NCBI GenBank assembly: GCA_002127285.1
Contig: NFUW01000002.1
Coordinates: forward strand, 505,744-569,743
Reading direction: 5' to 3'
Origin: Chitinophagaceae bacterium IBVUCB1
GTDB taxonomy: Bacteria > Bacteroidota > Bacteroidia > Chitinophagales > Chitinophagaceae
DNA: 64,000 bases
Below, in pieces: positions 2,320 to 39,735 of the stretch; within the stretch, counting starts at the first letter, position 1; every line of letters begins with the position of its first letter. The notes below the pieces were generated by a model that was not told where the DNA came from, searched no databases, and saw only the letters and a list, made by a program, of their open reading frames with translations. The translations under genes were made by a program, and so were the position numbers.

Positions 2320-4404
2320 CTAACTGATTTTTGCCCAGTTATTAGCTACTTTTTCTTGCAGTAGTATGTTGCGGATGCCAGTATGTTGCGGGTTGGTGAG
2401 AGAGGGGTCGTTAGATATGATTTGTTGAGCTGCAATACGGGTTTGTTCCAGTATGGCGCTATCATCTACAATATCTGCCAATTTGAATTTGAGCAGCCCG
2501 CTTTGTCGGGTACCGGATAGGTCGCCGGGGCCACGCATGGCAAGGTCTTTTTCCGCAATCACAAAACCATTGGATGTGGATGTCATTATCTTCATCCTTT
2601 CTGCACTCTCATTTGATAGTTTATTGCCCGTAAGCAATATGCAGTAAGACTGCTCTGCGCCACGCCCCACACGCCCGCGTAGCTGGTGCAGTTGCGATAA
2701 TCCAAAACGCTCCGCGCTTTCTATAAGCATCACGCTGGCGTTGGGTACGTTTACACCTACTTCTATCACGGTAGTAGCTACCAGTATATGTGCATTGCCA
2801 CTTATAAAGCGTTGCATATTCCGTTCCCGCTCTGCGGCATCTTGCCTGCCATGCACCATGGCTATATTATACTTATGTTCGGGAAAGAAGACTTTAACCT
2901 GTTCAAAACCAGCCATCAGGCTTTCATAGTCCATTTTTTCAGACTCCTCTATCAATGGATATACAATGTAGGCCTGTCTACCCTTGTTTATTTCGTTCTT
3001 TATGAAATCCATTACATTGGCACGGCGCATCTCGTTGCGATGCACAGTTTTTATTTCCTGCCTGCCGGGTGGTAGTTCGTCAATTACTGATACGTCCAAA
3101 TCACCATACAATGTCATGGCAAGTGTTCGTGGTATGGGTGTAGCCGTCATGACCAATACGTGCGGTGGTGTGCTGTTCTTCTTCCATAAGCGGGAGCGTT
3201 GCGCAACACCAAAACGATGTTGCTCGTCTATAATAGCCATCCCTAAATTATTAAACACAACAGTATCTTCTAGCAGTGCATGGGTACCTACCACAATAGA
3301 AATGCTACCGTCTTGCAGTCCTGCCAATGTTTCTTTTCTTTCCTTGCCCTTGGTACTGCCAGTTAGTATAGCCACTTGAATATTCATAGGTGCTAAAAGC
3401 TCCCTTACACTTTGATAATGCTGCTGCGCCAATATTTCAGTAGGTGCCATCAGGCAAGCCTGAAAACCATTGTCCATTGCAAGTAGCATAGACATGACTG
3501 CTACCATCGTTTTGCCGCTGCCTACATCACCTTGCAGCAAGCGGTTCATTTGCTTTCCTGTAGCAGTATCTACACGTATTTCTTTCAGTACACGTTTTTG
3601 CGCACCTGTTAGTTGAAAAGGTAAGTGATGGTTGTAAAATCCATTGAAGTTGTCCCCTACTTTATCAAACTTCCAGCCCTGCTGTACGGTATGTTGCAGT
3701 CTTAGTTGCGCTATTTTCAGTTGCGATGCCAGCAGTTCTTCCCATTTCAGCCTGTACCTTGCTGCCTGCATCTGTTCTTCGCTATCGGGGAAGTGTATCC
3801 ACTTAATAGCATTGTAGCGATTGCATAGCTGGTATTGGCTTAACAAATAAGGTGGTAGTATTTCGGGTATATCACCTTGTTTTATTTTCTCAAAAAGGCT
3901 TTGTGTTATTTTGGCAAATGAACGGTTACTGATGCCTTTTGCGCGCAGCTTTTCTGTTGTAGAGTAAACGGGCTGCATACCGGGAATAGTGGTTTCGCTA
4001 TTTAATGGTTCTATTTCAGGATGGGCGATGTTGGGTGCACTGTTGAAGAAAGACACTTTGCCAAACAGTATATACCTGCCATGGTCAACCAAAGATTTCT
4101 TCATCCATTGCGCACCCTGAAACCATATCAGTTCTATTTGCCCTGTATCGTCGTAAAACGTTGCAACCAATCGTTTTTTTCGCCCTTCACCTTCTTCAAA
4201 TATGTTGATGATGGTACCGAGTAACTGTACATATTCCGTATTGGCATTAATAGCGGCTACTTTATCTACCTTGGTGCGGTCGAAGTAGCGGTAGGGATAA
4301 TGGTAGAGCAAATCTCCGAATGTTGCAATCTCCAGTTCTTTGCGCAGCATTTCGCCACGCTGCGGGCCAACACCTTTCAGGTATTCTATAGGAGAATCTA
4401 ATAT
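2320..4404 (-). CDS. recG: ATP-dependent DNA helicase RecG
   Basis: RecG remodels stalled replication forks and Holliday junctions. Visible are the wedge/OB region in the first ~250 residues, Walker A GDVGSGKT, the DEAD-box variant IIDEQHRFG, motif III MTATPIPRTLA and the C-terminal helicase half with QLRGRVGRG. The first in-frame ATG (4350) gives 676 residues but would drop the conserved N-terminus SILDSPIEYLKGVGPQRGE, which is encoded upstream in the same frame, open back to a TAG at 4435-4437. No ATG, GTG or TTG occurs in that stretch; ATA at 4404, ATC at 4422 or ATC at 4431 are the only conventional-like options. I place the start at the ATA (694 residues), where family members usually have Met. 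The divergent gene at 4544 leaves 139 bases for both promoters. Confidence 0.9.
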   Translation of the reverse strand: MLDSPIEYLKGVGPQRGEMLRKELEIATFGDLLYHYPYRYFDRTKVDKVAAINANTEYVQLLGTIINIFEEGEGRKKRLVATFYDDTGQIELIWFQGAQWMKKSLVDHGRYILFGKVSFFNSAPNIAHPEIEPLNSETTIPGMQPVYSTTEKLRAKGISNRSFAKITQSLFEKIKQGDIPEILPPYLLSQYQLCNRYNAIKWIHFPDSEEQMQAARYRLKWEELLASQLKIAQLRLQHTVQQGWKFDKVGDNFNGFYNHHLPFQLTGAQKRVLKEIRVDTATGKQMNRLLQGDVGSGKTMVAVMSMLLAMDNGFQACLMAPTEILAQQHYQSVRELLAPMNIQVAILTGSTKGKERKETLAGLQDGSISIVVGTHALLEDTVVFNNLGMAIIDEQHRFGVAQRSRLWKKNSTPPHVLVMTATPIPRTLAMTLYGDLDVSVIDELPPGRQEIKTVHRNEMRRANVMDFIKNEINKGRQAYIVYPLIEESEKMDYESLMAGFEQVKVFFPEHKYNIAMVHGRQDAAERERNMQRFISGNAHILVATTVIEVGVNVPNASVMLIESAERFGLSQLHQLRGRVGRGAEQSYCILLTGNKLSNESAERMKIMTSTSNGFVIAEKDLAMRGPGDLSGTRQSGLLKFKLADIVDDSAILEQTRIAAQQIISNDPSLTNPQHTGIRNILLQEKVANNWAKIS

Positions 4405-33782: not shown

Positions 33783-34118
33783 ATGGAACTGATAAGCTGG
33801 CAAGATTTTGAGCGTGTTGGCTTGTATGCAGGTACGATATTGGAAGTACTGGACTTTCCAAAAGCTAAGAAGCCAGCCTACAAACTGAAGATAGACTTTG
33901 GGCAGTATGGAGTGAGGTGGAGTAGTGCGCAGATAACCACACTATATACCAAAGCAGAACTGACAGGCAGGCAGATAGTAGCCGTTATCAATTTCCCCGA
34001 AAAGCAGATAGCCGATTTCATGTCTCAATGCCTTGTAACAGGCTTTGCAGATGCCGATGGCAACATTGCACTCACTACCATAGACAAGCCCGTACCTAAT
34101 GGTACTAAGATAGGGTGA
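33783..34118 (+). CDS. csaA: tRNA-binding / chaperone-like protein CsaA
   Basis: Homodimeric OB-fold protein that binds tRNA; B. subtilis CsaA is reported to have secretion-chaperone activity. It has 111 residues, the normal length. Recognisable motifs are VGLYAGTILEVLDFPKAKKP, the SSAQIT turn (RWSSAQITTLY), GRQIVAVINFPEKQIADF and the C-terminal KPVPNGTKIG. It is the last gene before the repeat-rich accessory block beginning at 34120. Confidence 0.93.
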   Translation: MELISWQDFERVGLYAGTILEVLDFPKAKKPAYKLKIDFGQYGVRWSSAQITTLYTKAELTGRQIVAVINFPEKQIADFMSQCLVTGFADADGNIALTTIDKPVPNGTKIG

Positions 34119-34119
34119 A

Positions 34120-34310
34120 AGACACAACACAAGGCTTTGCATGAGGCAACACGAAGCAACCCCGTCATACCGAACGCAGAGAGGTATCTCCTGAGCATTT
34201 GTACTGCCAGTGATGGCGTTTCACCACTACCCCGTAGGTGGCTGAACATGGTACGCTGTTCCGTCCCTACAGGACGGGGATGGATTATGACAACCATACA
34301 GCTACAAAGC
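34120..34310. repeat. Left dispersed-repeat block, with 45-bp inverted-repeat arm
   Basis: Non-coding. It includes ACAAGGCTTTGC (34129-34140), whose reverse complement is at 37971-37982. The 45-base arm at 34161-34205 (from CCCGTCATACCGAACGC to GAGCATTTGTACT) recurs in inverted orientation at 38139-38183 with two mismatches. Small hairpins follow (CCAC-TAC-CCC-GTA-GGTGG; TCCGTCC-ctaca-GGACGGGGA). Intergenic palindromes of this kind are common in Bacteroidota genomes; their role is not settled. Confidence 0.75.
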
Positions 34311-34327
34311 TTTTGTTCTTACGGAAC

Positions 34328-34444
34328 ATCCCTATTATCCCTTCACAGCCTTCCATTCCTTCCATCTCTATTATCCCCATCATCCCTACTATCCCCATTA
34401 TCCCTTCTATCCCAACCATCCCTACTATCTCTCTTATCCAATCA
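34328..34444. repeat. Degenerate 9-bp minisatellite
   Basis: Thirteen consecutive units of 9 bases with consensus ATCCCNNNT/C; most units begin ATCCC or ATCTC and vary in the last four bases. Because the period is a multiple of three, one frame reads Ile-Pro-rich (IIPTIPIIPSIP), but no start or ribosome-binding context supports a gene. The stretch ends about 180 bases before the RepA-like ATPase start. Confidence 0.8.
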
Positions 34445-34578
34445 ACTAATCAACAAGTCATCCATCCACCACAATAATACATACTTGTTAATATTATGTT
34501 GATAACATTTTTACGTTTATTAATAAAATATTATTGTACATTTGTGCAAGAATTTATTGTTAACCAAACCCTACCGAA

Positions 34579-34613
34579 ACAACCCCTCCCTTTAGGGAGG
34601 ACGGGAGGGTTAA
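34579..34613. repeat. GC-rich hairpin before the RepA-like gene
   Basis: CCCTCCC-TTTA-GGGAGG followed by ACGGGAGGG, an imperfect palindrome just 14 bases before the ATG at 34627. It resembles the CCCCTCCT/AGGAGGGG hairpins at 38269 and 38398. It could influence translation or act as an attenuator-like structure; that is inference. Confidence 0.55.
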
Positions 34614-34626
34614 AAACTCATCACAC

Positions 34627-35703
34627 ATGGATTGGAGACAAGAAAAAGAAGAGGCAGAACGCCGTGCTGCCCAAGAACGCGAACGCCAAAGACTGCTAAG
34701 CGAAGAAACCATGCGGCTGGCTGTAGAAAACTACATGAGCCGCAAAAGCAACGGGGCTTTTATCATGAAACCCGCCATAGACTGGATGGCACAAGCCAGC
34801 CTGCGCCCCGTACCCAAAATGCTATTCAGCGAGCTATGGCACGAGGGCGAACTATGCATACTGTTTGCAGACACCAACACGGGCAAAAGCATACTGGCAG
34901 TGCAGATAGCAGACAGCATCAGCAAGGGCATACCCATAGAGGGCTTTAAGCTGGCAGCCAAAGCCCAGCCCGTTATCTATTTCGATTTTGAACTGTTCGA
35001 CAAGCAGTTTGAAGCCCGCTATAGCATAGACTATCAGCAGCACTACGCCTTTGCCCCAGACCTGCTGCGTGCCGAGCTGGACCCTGACCGAGAGATACCC
35101 AACCGCTACACCTGCTTTGAGGATTTTGTGTACGACAGTATAGAGCAGACCGTTGAAAACTCGGGTGCCAAAGTGCTGATAATAGACAACATAACCTACC
35201 TGCGCCAGGAAACCGAACAAGCCAAAGACGCGCTGCCACTGATGAAGCACCTGAAAGAACTGAAGAAACGCCACGGGCTAAGCATACTGGCACTGGCACA
35301 CACGCCCAAGCGCGATATGAGCAAACCCCTGACACTGAACGACCTGCAAGGCAGCAAGATGCTGATGAACTTTTGCGATAGCAGCTTTTGCATAGGCAAC
35401 TGCATGGGCGATACAGGGCTGCGCTACATAAAACAGGTAAAAGCCCGCAACACCGAAATCATCTACCACGACCGCAACGTAGCCCTCTGCCGCATACAAA
35501 AGCCCCACAACTTTTTGAAGTTTGTATTTACAGGTTGTGGCACGGAACAAGAGCACCTGAAAACGGTAGAAGATAAGAGTAGGGATTGGTTGGTGGGGGA
35601 GGTGAAGCGCATAGCGGATGATTGCCCTGATTGTAGTTATAGAGATATTGCAGACCATCTTGGCACAAGTAAAAGTACAGTAGCACGCATATTAAAAGAT
35701 TAG
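34627..35703 (+). CDS. RepA-like AAA ATPase (RecA fold) with C-terminal HTH
   Basis: Protein of 358 residues, similar in layout to AAA_25/RepA-type replicative ATPases of plasmids and phages. It has a charged helical N-terminus (about 1-40, EKEEAERRAAQERERQR). The Walker A region is CILFADTNTGKSILAVQ, with A81 where the first Gly is usual. A FDFELFDKQFEARY strand and Walker B VLIIDNITYL (about 180-190) follow, then LALAHTPKR. The C-terminal helix-turn-helix is CSYRDIADHLGTSKSTVARIL (about 337-357). No primase or integrase is adjacent. Base composition is strikingly GC-rich (162 of 300 bases in 34801-35100). It lacks a typical promoter box. Function is probably replication or mobility of a small element, or a repurposed chromosomal ATPase. 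Confidence 0.78.
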   Translation: MDWRQEKEEAERRAAQERERQRLLSEETMRLAVENYMSRKSNGAFIMKPAIDWMAQASLRPVPKMLFSELWHEGELCILFADTNTGKSILAVQIADSISKGIPIEGFKLAAKAQPVIYFDFELFDKQFEARYSIDYQQHYAFAPDLLRAELDPDREIPNRYTCFEDFVYDSIEQTVENSGAKVLIIDNITYLRQETEQAKDALPLMKHLKELKKRHGLSILALAHTPKRDMSKPLTLNDLQGSKMLMNFCDSSFCIGNCMGDTGLRYIKQVKARNTEIIYHDRNVALCRIQKPHNFLKFVFTGCGTEQEHLKTVEDKSRDWLVGEVKRIADDCPDCSYRDIADHLGTSKSTVARILKD

Positions 35704-35713
35704 CAGTAAGTAA

Positions 35714-35774
35714 CTGTCCCGCTTTGTCCCACTGTCCCAAATATTGTAACTGGTACGGTGGGACACTGGGACAG
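35714..35774. repeat. Left TGTCCC hairpin arm flanking the AIPR gene
   Basis: Sixty-one bases containing three TGTCCC and two GGGACA, arranged so the two ends can pair around a central AATATTGTAACTGGTA. It lies 10 bases after the RepA-like gene stop. A near-identical copy in inverted orientation lies at 37841-37903, just after the AIPR gene. The remaining gap up to 35949 is AT-rich and holds a small hairpin ATCTGC-gaat-GCAGAT at about 35821-35836. Confidence 0.85.
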
Positions 35775-35949
35775 ATTATGAACACTAAAAATTACTCACT
35801 CTTGTGTCATTGCAAGTAGTATCTGCGAATGCAGATATGTATGTGGCAATCTAAAGATAACATCGATTTATCCATTGCTTCCTTGCATATTTTATATGTA
35901 TGTTATGATGAAAAAGCACTTTATAATAAAGCTAAACTAAAGTATATTT

Positions 35950-37833
35950 ATGAAAACATTAAAACCTAATATTGTATTTATGAGAACACTGTTTAAAAAT
36001 CAAATCACTGAAGATTTAAAAATTATCGAAGAAGAATTTGTTACCAATGAACCAAAACTTGCTAAACCTGAATACGCTTTTAACTATTGGATTCTTAGTA
36101 GAATATACAACGTTGATGATGAGTTAATTCCAACACAGATTACAGACTACAACGATTCTGGTATTGATTGCTATGTACATTATGAAGATTCAAAAGAGCT
36201 ATTCATAATACAAAATAAGTATTATGATGATAATACTCCATTAGACAGAAAGTATGTATCAGATTTTTTAACAGCTCCACTAGCAGCTTTAAAGGCTGGA
36301 AAATATAAGAGAAGTAAAGATTTGCAAAATACTTTTGACAGAGCTATTGAAGACGAAGACTACAAAATATACTTGCATATGTATGTTACTAACAACAAAT
36401 CAAATACTGCTATAGATAATTTATTTAGCCAATTTAATATTAATGAAAATGGAAATAAAATTAGTAGTGCAATTGTTAGGAGTGAAATTTTCTATTTAGA
36501 TAAGATATATGATTTATACTATGGTAAGGCTTTTGAAGAACAGAAGAAGTTTCAGTTTGAATTGTCAACTATTAATAAAGGTACAATACTTAGGGTACTA
36601 CCAAATGAATATAAACTAGAGGGAATGTCACCAGCACATTATATAATGACGCCATTAAGTGTCATTTATAGGATGTATAGCTCAGCTCAACAAAAAGGAT
36701 ATCCTCTCTTTGAAGAAAATATACGTGAGTATCTCGGCCGCAGTCCTATTAATAACGGCATTATGAGAACTTTAAGAAGTGAAGAAGACAGAAAAAATTT
36801 CTTCTATTATAACAATGGAATTACAATAATATGTGAGAAGGCTGAATCGGATACTGGTACTGCATTTAAGTTAAATATTTCTCAACCGCAAGTAGTAAAT
36901 GGTTGTCAAACAGTTAACACTATTTACGAGGTTTTGAACGATTATGCTAAAAAAGATATAGCTTTAATAGACAAAGAATTTGGGAGTGTATATGTAATGG
37001 TTAAGGTATTAATCTTTAATACTCAAGTTAGTACTAAAAAACCAAATTTTTATAAGGATATTGTAAGGTTCACAAATAGTCAAAATGCGATTAATGAAAA
37101 AGCATTTGCATCAGACAAAGAAATATTTTCTAAACTACAACAAGAACTTGAAAATAGAGGATTTATTCTATTGGTTCAACATAGCGATAAACATAAATTT
37201 AAAGAAAAATATAAAGATAAGGCGGCATTTAATTCGTTAGTAAAAAAAGCTAATCGATATTCAAGTGCGCTTAATTTGGACTTAACTACTTTTTCAGATG
37301 TTACTATTCAGCTTGAAAAGTTATTACAGGTTTACTTAGCTTTCATGTTAGATGGATATTATGCTTACTCAAAGAAAAGTAAAATTCTAAATCCACAAAG
37401 TGAGTATTATAACAATTACTCCTTAAAAATGCATGATAACTTTACTTACGATAATTTACTAAGGTTATATTTAATACATAAAAAAGCAGAAGTTGATAGA
37501 ACATCAAGCCCAGATAAGAAAACCCCAATTCCTTATTACCTTATAGGCTTTTTAGGGCATATCACTGAAAGCAGGGATAACTACACAACAATAAATTCAT
37601 TTTTCAATAAACTATTTGAATTAAAACAATCTGATATCACTTTGTTTTATAACTTTTTTAGTGATTTAACTAATGCATATAAAATCGCATACAAGCAGTC
37701 ACACAATGAGGAGTATAATACAATGATTAAACAAAAAATTGATGAAAAATTAGTTCTAGCTCAAGTTGATTTCTTGCTTGTATTAGGTGGCCATAAAGAA
37801 TTTAAACGTATTTTACACGAGTTGAAAAGTTAA
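35950..37833 (+). CDS. AIPR-family protein with PD-(D/E)XK-like N-terminus, putative phage defence
   Basis: Protein of 627 residues. The AIPR (abortive infection phage resistance) core is recognised by FFYYNNGITIICEKA (about 283-297) and ISQPQVVNGCQTVNTIYEV (about 311-329), followed by RFTNSQNAINEKAFASD. The N-terminal ~130 residues have the pattern SGIDCYV (D73), then LFIIQNKYY (Q88, K90), resembling the D...QxK active site of Mrr-like restriction nucleases; this is inference. Very AT-rich (80 G/C in 300 bases, 36361-36660), with A/T-ending codons unlike its neighbours, a sign of transfer. It sits between inverted hairpin arms. No methyltransferase is nearby. A second Met at residue 11 is an alternative start. 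Confidence 0.82.
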   Translation: MKTLKPNIVFMRTLFKNQITEDLKIIEEEFVTNEPKLAKPEYAFNYWILSRIYNVDDELIPTQITDYNDSGIDCYVHYEDSKELFIIQNKYYDDNTPLDRKYVSDFLTAPLAALKAGKYKRSKDLQNTFDRAIEDEDYKIYLHMYVTNNKSNTAIDNLFSQFNINENGNKISSAIVRSEIFYLDKIYDLYYGKAFEEQKKFQFELSTINKGTILRVLPNEYKLEGMSPAHYIMTPLSVIYRMYSSAQQKGYPLFEENIREYLGRSPINNGIMRTLRSEEDRKNFFYYNNGITIICEKAESDTGTAFKLNISQPQVVNGCQTVNTIYEVLNDYAKKDIALIDKEFGSVYVMVKVLIFNTQVSTKKPNFYKDIVRFTNSQNAINEKAFASDKEIFSKLQQELENRGFILLVQHSDKHKFKEKYKDKAAFNSLVKKANRYSSALNLDLTTFSDVTIQLEKLLQVYLAFMLDGYYAYSKKSKILNPQSEYYNNYSLKMHDNFTYDNLLRLYLIHKKAEVDRTSSPDKKTPIPYYLIGFLGHITESRDNYTTINSFFNKLFELKQSDITLFYNFFSDLTNAYKIAYKQSHNEEYNTMIKQKIDEKLVLAQVDFLLVLGGHKEFKRILHELKS

Positions 37834-37840
37834 TATCATT

Positions 37841-37903
37841 CTGTCCCAAGTGTCCCAGAAAACCAGTTACAATATTTTGGGACAGTGGGACAAGCTGGGA
37901 CAA
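37841..37903. repeat. Right TGTCCC hairpin arm flanking the AIPR gene
   Basis: Sixty-three bases, the reverse complement of which aligns with 35714-35774 over its full length with a few substitutions and three one-base gaps. The shared core comprises TTGTCCCACTGTCCC, AATATTGTAACTGGT and TGGGACACT. It begins 7 bases after the AIPR stop, so it can also serve as a transcription-terminating hairpin. Confidence 0.85.
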
Positions 37904-38101
37904 AACCCTCACCCCGTGAGATGGCTTCGTGCCTCGCCATGACTCGTGTTGTGTCATTGCGCGGAAGCATAGCAAAGCCTTGTGCGTAGGCTGCTGACAA
38001 AGCAACTTTTCTCATGTAGCGAAGCGGAATAATCTCACATTATTAAGGCTCATGTTATCGTGAGATTGCTTCGTACCTCGCAATGACACACAACCACACC
38101 T

Positions 38102-38183
38102 GTCATGCTGAACGCAGTGAAGCATCTGCATCATCGGTAGTACTAATGCTCAGGAGATACCTCTCTGTGTTCGGTATGACGGG
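38102..38183. repeat. Palindromic dispersed repeat with right 45-bp arm
   Basis: An imperfect palindrome: GTCATGCTGAACGCAGTGAA on the left pairs with TCTGTGTTCGGTATGAC on the right. The right half (38139-38183) is the inverted partner of 34161-34205. The left-hand locus carries only one arm of the palindrome. Confidence 0.8.
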
Positions 38184-38220
38184 CGTTGGTTGGGCTGGCT
38201 CTACATGAGTAGTTATTAAC

Positions 38221-38260
38221 CGCAAAGACGCAAAGTCGCAAAGGGAAACGCAAAGGGGAA
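38221..38260. repeat. CGCAAAG short tandem repeat
   Basis: Four or more copies of CGCAAAG spaced by one to five bases (CGCAAAGACGCAAAGTCGCAAAG, then GGAAACGCAAAGG; given here in pieces). A motif of this type is a frequent intergenic repeat in Bacteroidota; no coding or structural role is evident. Confidence 0.7.
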
Positions 38261-38268
38261 AATTTAAA

Positions 38269-38421
38269 CTCCCCTCCTGTTTTTAGGAGGGGTGTCCGCA
38301 TAGCTATGTGCGGTGGGCGGACGGGGTGGTTATATACTCGCCACGAGCTTACCACCCCGATTGGCTTACGACAAGCTCCGCATGTCTGCGCCAATATCCC
38401 CTCCTAAAAACAGGAGGGGAG
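38269..38421. repeat. Inverted pair of CCCCTCCT/AGGAGGGG hairpins
   Basis: A 24-base hairpin at 38269-38292 (CCCCTCCT-gttttt-AGGAGGGG) and its exact reverse complement at 38398-38421 bracket about 105 bases containing GTCCGC/GCGGAC and CCACCCCG-type palindromes. Non-coding. Confidence 0.75.
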
Positions 38422-38434
38422 CTAAAGAACAAAC

Positions 38435-38590
38435 TCCCCTGTAAGGGCATATAGGGGTAACTACTCGCAACGAGCAAATCACTCATTTCACGAGATTGCT
38501 TCGTCGTTACCTCCTCGCAAAGACGGAAAGAGAACAAAAGTCCTCTGTAAGGGGATTTAGGGGTACTACTCGCAACGAGCAAATCACTCA
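38435..38590. repeat. Direct repeat, about 50 bp, two copies
   Basis: 38435-38485 and 38541-38590 share CTGTAAGGG, TAGGGGTA and an identical 23-base tail beginning ACTCGCAACGAGC and ending AAATCACTCA. The second copy ends just before the fourth GTGAGAT element. Together they look like duplicated repeat modules. Confidence 0.75.
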
Positions 38591-38634
38591 CCCCCGTGAG
38601 ATGGCTTTACTCTTCGCCATGACACTCAAATTTT

Positions 38635-39735
38635 TTACTTCTTTCCCAAATCCCTCAGCATACGGGCGTGTACCTGTAGTGCGGCTACAAAGTTGGGCTG
38701 CACATTGTAGGGCAGGTTGTGTTCCTGTGCGGTTTGTGCTACTATTTTTGATAATTGCGGATAGTGTATGTGGCATATATGCGGAAACAGGTGATGCTCT
38801 ATCTGATAGTTGAGCCCGCCTATAAACCAAGACATGATGGTGCTGCGTGGCGAAAAGTTGGCCGTATTCAGCAGTTGGTGTATAGCCCAGCTATTTTCCA
38901 TTTTATTCATCTCATCGGGCTCTGCATAGTCTGATGTATGCATTACGTGTGCCAGCTGAAATACGCAGGCAAGTACCAGCCCTGCCAGCATCTGCATCAG
39001 CACAAAGCCAATAATCACATGCTGCCATGCCATGCCCGAAAACAGCAATGGCAATACTACTACATAACCAAAGAAGATGAGTTTGTAAAAAGTAAGCTCT
39101 GCCAAAGCCCTGCCAAACGATACTTTCTCTTTTTTCAGCAGTCCTGTTTTGTGGTATTTTATCAGTCCTTTGTAGTCTTTCACCGTTACCCAGTATATGT
39201 TCATGATGCCATACAGCAACCATGCGTACCAGTGCTGATAACGATGAATGGCATACCTCTTTTTGTTGGGCGACATGCGGAGCAATATACCCGCTTCTAT
39301 ATCTTCATCCAGCCCGTCTACATTGGTATAGGTATGGTGCAGTATATTGTGCTGCATACGCCAGTTGCGGCTATAGCCACCCAGTATGTTGAGTGTGCCG
39401 CCAAACAGGGTGTTTACAAAGTTGTTATCAGAGTAGGCTTCGTGGTTGCTATCGTGCATTACAGACATGCCGAGGCTTGCCAAGCCAATACCCATTACAA
39501 GCCATAGGGCATAAAACAATACGATGTTTACGCTTGCCAGCCCGCTTACTATCAGGGCATAAGGCACAAAGTATATACATAGCAAGGCGGCTGTCTTAAT
39601 ATACATTTTAAGGTTGCCGTGCTTAGAAATACCATTATCTGCAAAGTATTGGTTAACCCTTGTTTTTACGTTGTCGTAAAAGCTATCTGCACCTTTAGGG
39701 GCAAATTTTACAAGGGGCAAAGATTGAGTGGACAT
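38635..39735 (-). CDS. Membrane fatty acid desaturase (type 1)
   Basis: Di-iron membrane desaturase of 366 residues, acting on acyl chains of lipids or acyl-CoA. All three histidine boxes are present: HDSNHEA (about 113-119), HNILHHTYTN (about 149) and QIEHHLFPH (about 310). Hydrophobic segments are at about 50-95 and 205-250. The C-terminus resembles linoleoyl-CoA/delta-6-type desaturases of Bacteroidota, but regiospecificity cannot be read from sequence. ATG start with an exact -7 box 22 bases upstream. Its 3' end abuts the dispersed-repeat nest. Confidence 0.9.
   Translation of the reverse strand: MSTQSLPLVKFAPKGADSFYDNVKTRVNQYFADNGISKHGNLKMYIKTAALLCIYFVPYALIVSGLASVNIVLFYALWLVMGIGLASLGMSVMHDSNHEAYSDNNFVNTLFGGTLNILGGYSRNWRMQHNILHHTYTNVDGLDEDIEAGILLRMSPNKKRYAIHRYQHWYAWLLYGIMNIYWVTVKDYKGLIKYHKTGLLKKEKVSFGRALAELTFYKLIFFGYVVVLPLLFSGMAWQHVIIGFVLMQMLAGLVLACVFQLAHVMHTSDYAEPDEMNKMENSWAIHQLLNTANFSPRSTIMSWFIGGLNYQIEHHLFPHICHIHYPQLSKIVAQTAQEHNLPYNVQPNFVAALQVHARMLRDLGKK

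Follow-up and report, generated by a model that had tools for sequence, protein, structure and literature searches.

The window analysed here is a stretch of 64,000 nucleotides (nt) from Chitinophagaceae bacterium IBVUCB1 (G000:C2:505744-569743; source genome of 3.41 megabases in 2 contigs), and the element in question is an insertion between csaA and a fatty-acid desaturase gene, which carries a RepA/DnaB-like ATPase gene followed by a gene for an AIPR protein. We propose, with a probability of roughly 0.6, that this locus is a slot in a system for the exchange of gene cassettes bounded by palindromes. A single "cargo" gene, here the AIPR gene, lies between two inverted palindromes, the boxes of which would be recognised by the C-terminal helix-turn-helix (HTH) of the ATPase itself. 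In this reading, the HTH is swapped together with palindromes and cargo as one module, and the cargo is swapped by itself as well, between palindromes. Comparison of loci across genomes shows the bounding by inverted, locus-specific palindromes, the covariation of recognition helix and palindrome motif, the exchange of cargo at the same chromosomal site and the occurrence of cassettes devoid of ATPase; all four are read from sequence comparison.

Palindromes, recognition helices and exchange of cargo

Relatives of the ATPase are encoded in 10 of the 147 genomes of the family (in 7, the expectation value, E, is below 1e-100), in 27 of 396 genomes of the order and in 118 further places in genome contigs, the best 80 of which were kept. 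We examined 98 loci together and two later ones (L187 and L188), i.e. 100, among which two figure twice (L040 is L153 and L071 is L157); genes were called by a crude longest-frame rule in part of this survey. In 18 of the 100 loci, the ATPase gene is followed by a gene of low guanine-plus-cytosine (GC) content after which the locus's palindrome occurs a second time. The left and the right palindrome of a locus match each other (0 of 5000 permutations): a locus's own right palindrome ranks first in 14 of the 18, second in L030 and fourth in L035, where the palindromes are degenerate and were accepted by eye, and is unmatched in the 75 nt after the cargo in L032 and L022. It begins at most 75 nt from the cargo stop in 16 of the 18 and further on in L022 and L032, an extra 97-codon frame preceding it in L022. 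Cargo GC is below flank GC in all 18 loci (mean of 0.31 vs. 0.44). We did not count as cargo loci L027, where the second palindrome is in direct orientation and the gene between is of ordinary GC, or L104, where the palindromes surround DUF6371, nor did we count as a cassette the second low-GC gene of L150 (PADLOC PDC-S42, 1.1e-28), which lies outside the palindrome pair. The Bacteroidota-type ATPase contigs L033, L034 and L086 are filed in Azovibrio and Rhizobium metagenome-assembled genomes (MAGs) and are probably misbinned.

In a blind test, 50 of 98 ATPase genes had a multi-box palindrome within 95 nt downstream of their stop codon, against 61 of 4900 random 95-mers. Similarity of motif correlates with similarity of recognition helix (r 0.56), and the partial correlation is 0.53 when the similarity of the ATPase body is held constant, a value reached in 0 of 2000 permutations, the largest of which gave 0.18 (n = 45, after dropping the 48 loci without detectable box and 5 redundant ones). 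At body identities below 65%, the nearest helix predicts the motif with a cosine of 0.49, vs. 0.25 for the nearest body and 0.17 for chance. Helices of the KSTVxR or KTTVxR type go with TGTCCC, SHMKVxR with TGTAACA, SLGAVNKYL with TGTTCAC and GLG(T/S)VNRYL with TGTTCC; the types set beside the two ATPases of the window's genome, in the window and at L008, are TGTCCC and TGTTCGCG. Binding of the boxes by the HTH is a strong inference.

Helix, palindromes and cargo also change jointly. In four pairs of loci (L033/L034, L035/L036, L187/L188 and L008/L150), the ATPase bodies are 95, 94, 90 and 87% identical; their homology breaks off 105-151 nt short of the ATPase stop, and the HTH is exchanged along with palindromes and cargo. 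The first two pairs are each two contigs of one MAG, with protein bodies 99 and 97% identical and a different helix, palindrome and cargo; L187 and L188 occupy the same site in G148 and G152, where 90% homology ends 137 nt before the ATPase stop and restarts after the right palindrome; the break in L008/L150 lies 130 nt before the stop. The reverse case is given by the window and L030, with an HTH end and palindrome 94-100% identical (last windows of the comparison) and a body at 66-88%: here, the palindromes are conserved and the cargo is AIPR in one and OLD in the other.

Three sites common to the sister genomes G148 and G152 hold differing cargo, namely L187/L188, L189/L199 and L242/L243. 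In L189/L199, the flanks are 92-94% identical with nested palindromes on both sides, the cargo is a GldM-like gene in one and a SIR2 gene in opposite orientation in the other, and base-by-base alignment shows identity ending exactly at the cargo-facing edges of the innermost TGTCCC palindromes. Flanks of about 96% identity enclose a lipoprotein-like gene in one and an ApeA-HEPN gene in the other member of L242/L243, the edges of which were not aligned base by base. As read from these alignments, the comparison shows exchange of cargo at one chromosomal site between palindromes.

A palindrome pair around one gene, with no ATPase in the fetched stretch, was found in eight places (L007, L189, L199, L239, L241, L242, L243 and L190). 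These "solo" cassettes are often nested: the left side of L241 reads, from the outside in, TGCCCA, TGCTCA, GTTCAC, TGTTCG, TGTAAC and TGTCCC, and the right side repeats this in mirror order with small differences (an extra TGTCCC; TGCTCA not called), the nested box types being those found after ATPases elsewhere. The outer palindromes of L242 and L243 are partly degenerate. Four congeners contain 51 exact matches to the pattern TGTCCCAN{0,6}TGTCCCA, and 0 to its reversed form. A cassette or an ATPase element lies upstream of recA in four of six congeners, G000 (L007), G148 (L189), G152 (L199) and G155 (L150), with one gene between recA and the cassette in G148 and G152; the box detector found no such palindrome upstream of recA in G147 and G153 (L201 and L202).

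Some further arrangements were seen at or near such places. L240 of G155 has a lone TGTCCC palindrome without cargo (3501-3551) between ordinary genes, with other palindromes nearby, and is possibly an empty slot. Four tandem left palindromes stand at 3635-4037 of L239, with repeats resembling repetitive extragenic palindromic (REP) sequences between them and a period of 114 base pairs (bp) for the last three. REP-like GTCATTGCGAGG repeats are found inverted, inside the palindromes around the cargo, in L199 (8513 and 9878) and L239 (3718-4873).

The 26 cassettes (18 cargo loci and 8 solo ones) represent 23 unrelated cargo groups, and the only two homologous sets are L025/L037 (40%) and the GldM-like genes of L007, L189 and L190 (46 and 32%; L190 by tblastn). 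Cargos of one family need not share a motif: the palindromes around L025 and L037 are of the ATTCC and TGTTTCA types, and those around L190 of the TGTTCA type. Eleven of the 25 cargos scanned with PADLOC match a defence model at 1e-5: AbiU (the window), bSEFIR (2e-96), Old, SpbK-TIR, a TIR effector (6.6e-6), Fic PDC-S04, ThsA-SIR2, ThsB-TIR, PDC-S31, SIR2 and ApeA. In a small control, none of five housekeeping genes of the window matched at 1e-5, and one did at 0.008.

The window locus

In the congeners G152 and G148, a collinear alignment reaches the end of csaA and restarts in the desaturase gene; the two genes are convergent, and their stop codons, read from the sequence, lie 0-1 bp apart. 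Because the two genes abut there, the interval of 4.5 kilobases (kb) between them in the window is an insertion (Table 1), as a reading made earlier from the window alone (the sequence-only reading) had supposed. The sites of G155, G147 and G153 give no information, for want of an alignment on the csaA side. GC content is 0.29 for the AIPR gene, 0.50 for the ATPase gene and 0.43 for the flanks.

Table 1. Features of the insertion (positions in the window; a dot marks a feature without strand)
Feature	Position	Strand	Remarks
Whole insertion	34119..38634	.	csaA ends at 34118, fatty-acid desaturase gene ends at 38635; site empty in G152 and G148
Outer dispersed repeat, left copy	34161..34228	+	contains GTCATACCGAACGCAGAGAGGTATCTCC; inverted partner 38116-38183, 84% over 68 nt
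Conserved region upstream of ATPase	34466..34553	+	same stretch upstream of the L008 ATPase; limits approximate, by eye; holds a -7 element of the Bacteroidota type
RepA/DnaB-like RecA-fold ATPase with C-terminal HTH	34627..35703	+	AAA_25; recognition helix TSKSTVARILK
HTH-coding 3' end of ATPase	35563..35703	+	part swapped with palindromes in other loci; break about 105-150 nt before stop
Left palindrome	35714..35774	+	three TGTCCC boxes, loop, two GGGACA boxes; directly after ATPase stop
Cargo gene, AIPR protein	35950..37833	+	PF10592, 2.5e-36; candidate PD-(D/E)XK-type nuclease N-terminus (weak)
Right palindrome	37842..37902	-	copy of the left palindrome in inverted orientation, 60 of 67 aligned; directly after AIPR stop
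Outer dispersed repeat, right copy	38116..38183	-	inverted partner of 34161-34228

The two palindromes are the only ones with at least four boxes that a motif-free detector finds in the whole window, the left one folds as a single strand with a z-score of -4.9, and its motif recurs after ATPases carrying the same type of helix. We also considered them as intrinsic terminators and rejected this, as neither was called terminator-like in 34000-38700 (criterion of a hairpin and a T run). The sequence-only reading had seen dispersed repeats bounding the gene pair; such repeats do exist, and it is the inner locus-specific palindromes, which it had missed, that matter, not (or not only) the outer ones. 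The outer 68-nt repeat has only two copies in the window, recurs in L147, L150 and L241 (three of the 15 other loci tested) and was rejected as a functional end for being dispersed; it nonetheless forms the outer mirrored pair at this locus. Outside the cassette, we note a C/T-rich 9-bp tandem array (ATCCCTATT-like units, 34328-34439) upstream of the ATPase promoter region, and a 29-nt inverted repeat to the right (38264-38292/38398-38426, 93% complementary), one arm of which was called terminator-like on the minus strand.

The absence of an integrase in the earlier description is borne out: among the 17 window proteins scanned (26.5-43.3 kb), we found no integrase, be it of the IntI type beside the slot or another, no excisionase, no relaxase and no transposase domain, a trans-acting transposase not having been sought. 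No target-site duplication was established, as none can be defined where the junctions abut stop codons and dispersed repeats.

The gene pair itself is real, and the AIPR gene is, as had been suggested, a candidate for defence. Its product belongs to the AIPR family (PF10592, 126.4 bits for a cut-off of 25), has a Mrr_cat_2 match below cut-off (8.5e-4) and matches, as models alone, AbiU (2.6e-29) and MzaE (1.5e-11) in PADLOC; the MzaE equivalog score of 59.3 bits for a cut-off of 1050 does not make it a member of an MZA system. We predict that the cargo is most likely a stand-alone abortive-infection nuclease. Searching solved structures by sequence yielded no useful match for AIPR or DUF6371 proteins.

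What does not hold is a dedicated pairing of the two proteins. Among the 147 genomes of the family, the ATPase is found in 10 and AIPR in 5, both together only in the window's genome, and we rejected a specific ATPase-AIPR defence system, the slot being held elsewhere by TIR, SEFIR, SIR2, OLD, Fic or unknown genes. Two signs that would together mark a chance pairing had been named in advance: the presence of the ATPase in this interval in all relatives, which is not the case since the site is empty, and AIPR genes living apart from the ATPase, which do occur. Relatives of the AIPR gene were retrieved in L170-L174 (loci of 3.2-3.5 kb), where the sole box cluster is in L174, within the matched stretch. 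The idea of a defence gene that uses the repeat locus of the ATPase as a landing site, on the other hand, comes close to what the comparison shows.

The ATPase, its DUF6371 partner and a possible mode of copying

The window ATPase looks like a RepA-like hexameric helicase, a prediction drawn from its matches in PHROGs (DNA primase/helicase at 2e-14, DnaB-like at 2e-13) and from structural matches to RSF1010 RepA, T7 gp4 and DnaB, which place it in the RecA-like ATPase fold. The window's genome has a second copy (L008), and the frames are intact, with no internal stops, in the copies found. Phage records gave two matches, both in unannotated faecal records, and eight plasmid records encode ATPases of 42-44% amino-acid identity over 88-89% of the length.

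A DUF6371 gene follows on the same strand at most 6 kb after the ATPase gene in 69 of 91 loci and within 400 nt in 60 of 91; 7 of the 22 loci without it end within 1.5 kb. These proteins match Zn_ribbon_16 and DUF6371 in Pfam, and have the zinc ribbon and Toprim catalytic residues of a DnaG-type primase: the zinc-ribbon cysteines and the ESEKT, FPD and DxxD (Toprim) motifs are invariant or nearly so in 40 of them. A structural model (predicted local distance difference test score of 84.6) matches T7 gp4 primase (1nui), Twinkle and DnaG, the best few at E 1e-4 or better. Since the ATPase matches replicative helicases, in PHROGs and by its fold, and DUF6371 matches primases, the pair looks like a helicase-primase module. 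The only DUF6371 gene of the window's genome adjoins the second ATPase and is absent beside the window ATPase, so that at the window locus it could act only in trans. In L078, L092 and other Flavobacteriia-type loci, the ATPase is followed by a small conserved frame instead of the palindrome, then by DUF6371 and restriction genes (MmeI-like, HsdR-like), with an integrase upstream in L078.

An AAA family ATPase gene followed by a DUF6371 gene is also the gene order of the Bacteroides integrative mobilizable element Tn4555, according to a table of PMC13183296, and a circular Tn4555-like record of 10,057 bp (CP103138.1) carries the pair, as do two further loci in the company of integrases (L043 and L078). 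In the window's genome, the module is present at L008, and beside the window ATPase the DUF6371 gene is absent. Unlike the window locus, which has paired palindromes with cargo and no such mobility genes within the scanned neighbours, Tn4555 encodes an integrase, an excisionase and mobilization functions, and its ATPase and DUF6371 genes have no palindrome between them. The replication of excised integrative mobilizable elements (IMEs) has not been studied, as stated in the excerpt of a review (PMC5704250).

A parallel for the palindromes may be sought in IncQ plasmids, which, in the excerpts of PMC6925257 and PMC4434180, have a helicase, a primase and an iteron-binding protein, and replicate by strand displacement from ssiA and ssiB on the two strands. 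As far as these excerpts go, IncQ plasmids such as RSF1010 share with our loci a RepA-fold helicase, a primase, site recognition and two opposed initiation sites able to fold as hairpins. They differ in that the HTH is fused here to the helicase whereas IncQ has a separate RepC, in that DUF6371 is Toprim/DnaG-like whereas RepB' is a primase of the archaeo-eukaryotic type, and in that the window system is chromosomal, with sites flanking a cargo gene. With a primase, a helicase that carries an HTH of its own, and a cargo enclosed by two inverted sites able to form hairpins, our loci suggest to us over-replication of the stretch between these sites. The two palindromes would be paired initiation sites, like ssiA and ssiB, between which the ATPase and the DUF6371 primase would over-replicate the DNA; the cassette copy would then recombine by homology into other matching palindromes, with no need for an integrase. 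In the window's genome, the primase may be supplied in trans from L008. We put this replicative mechanism forward tentatively, the probability we grant it staying short of even.

Integron gene cassettes are also single-gene units with folded DNA sites, exchangeable at one slot, and resemble our cassettes in these three respects. They differ in that the sites here are inverted and at both ends, each slot has its own site sequence, predicted to be read by the adjoining ATPase, and no tyrosine recombinase gene was seen among the scanned neighbours.

Alternative explanations and significance

Several observations weigh against the exchange system or its replicative version. In the blind test, 48 of the 98 loci lacked a palindrome, and DUF6371 lies within 6 kb in only 10 of the 18 cargo loci, being absent from the window, L022, L030, L032-L035 and L038, contig ends not being excluded for all of these. 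In CP103138.1, only 3 nt separate the ATPase gene from the DUF6371 gene, too few to fit a palindrome; 14 of the 25 scanned cargos have no defence match in PADLOC at 1e-5; no cassette was seen in excised, circular, linear or single-stranded form; and over-replication leaves the mirrored nesting of palindromes of different motifs unexplained. Most of what the comparison shows could be produced by homologous recombination alone, and this is the core of the main rival, which we find rather doubtful: the palindromes would be passive homology arms, mere conserved flanks of regulatory or structural nature, between which cargo is swapped by RecA recombination after DNA uptake, the ATPase being an idle IME remnant. 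Sister genomes do keep nested arms of about 90-98% identity, some 250 nt on each side of differing cargo, and the solo cassettes lack an ATPase in the fetched stretch. Passive arms, however, leave unexplained the covariation of box and helix that persists at constant ATPase body, the joint swapping of HTH and palindrome, and the mirror order of multi-box palindromes.

The adjacency of one conserved protein to many candidate effectors, with an HTH that covaries with the sites, would also suit a modular defence system, in which the ATPase is a conserved sensor, the effectors are swappable and the palindromes are operators or the DNA sensed. We consider this improbable, as effector-like cargos also lie between palindromes without ATPase (all eight solo cassettes), the 60 ATPases with DUF6371 within 400 nt downstream have no cargo, and several cargos match stand-alone systems, e.g. 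bSEFIR. Still less probable is a decayed IME with one passenger gene, the palindromes being leftovers of its origin and their inversion without function; the Tn4555-like record and the integrases of L043 and L078 speak for such an ancestry, yet the ATPase frames are intact and exchange continues between sister genomes. Spreading of the palindromes by an HUH transposase encoded elsewhere in the genome, in the manner of REPIN/RAYT, is hardly credible: REP-like repeats of the GTCATTGCGAGG type are common around the cassettes, and REPINs are likewise short intergenic palindromes, but those described here consist of several boxes, are specific to their locus, enclose a cargo gene and covary with the adjacent helicase-like ATPase.

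The palindrome-bounded exchange system remains our best reading. Each of its parts is known by itself, and we found in print (open-licence PubMed Central papers, with the terms used) no description of such cassettes, of this arrangement or of an HTH exchanged jointly with its sites and cargo. The borders, the likely reading protein and its recognition code can be spelled out, which makes binding, replication and exchange directly testable. It has long been asked how single anti-phage genes enter and leave chromosomes when no recombinase is evident, and our comparison suggests that bacteria have a means, so far undescribed, of swapping such genes one at a time with no known recombinase involved. 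Palindrome pairs are also a route to new defence genes by position, 14 of the 25 scanned cargos having no known model. In its fullest form, which we regard as possible and no less tentative than the mechanism it builds on, this would be a new gene-mobility system, in which a helicase-primase pair, its site-reading domain being exchangeable, copies cassettes of one gene each that lie between cognate inverted palindromes; the concentric solo palindromes of several specificities (five or more in L241) would let one cargo enter ATPase loci of different specificity, and bacteria may in this way rotate their immune genes.

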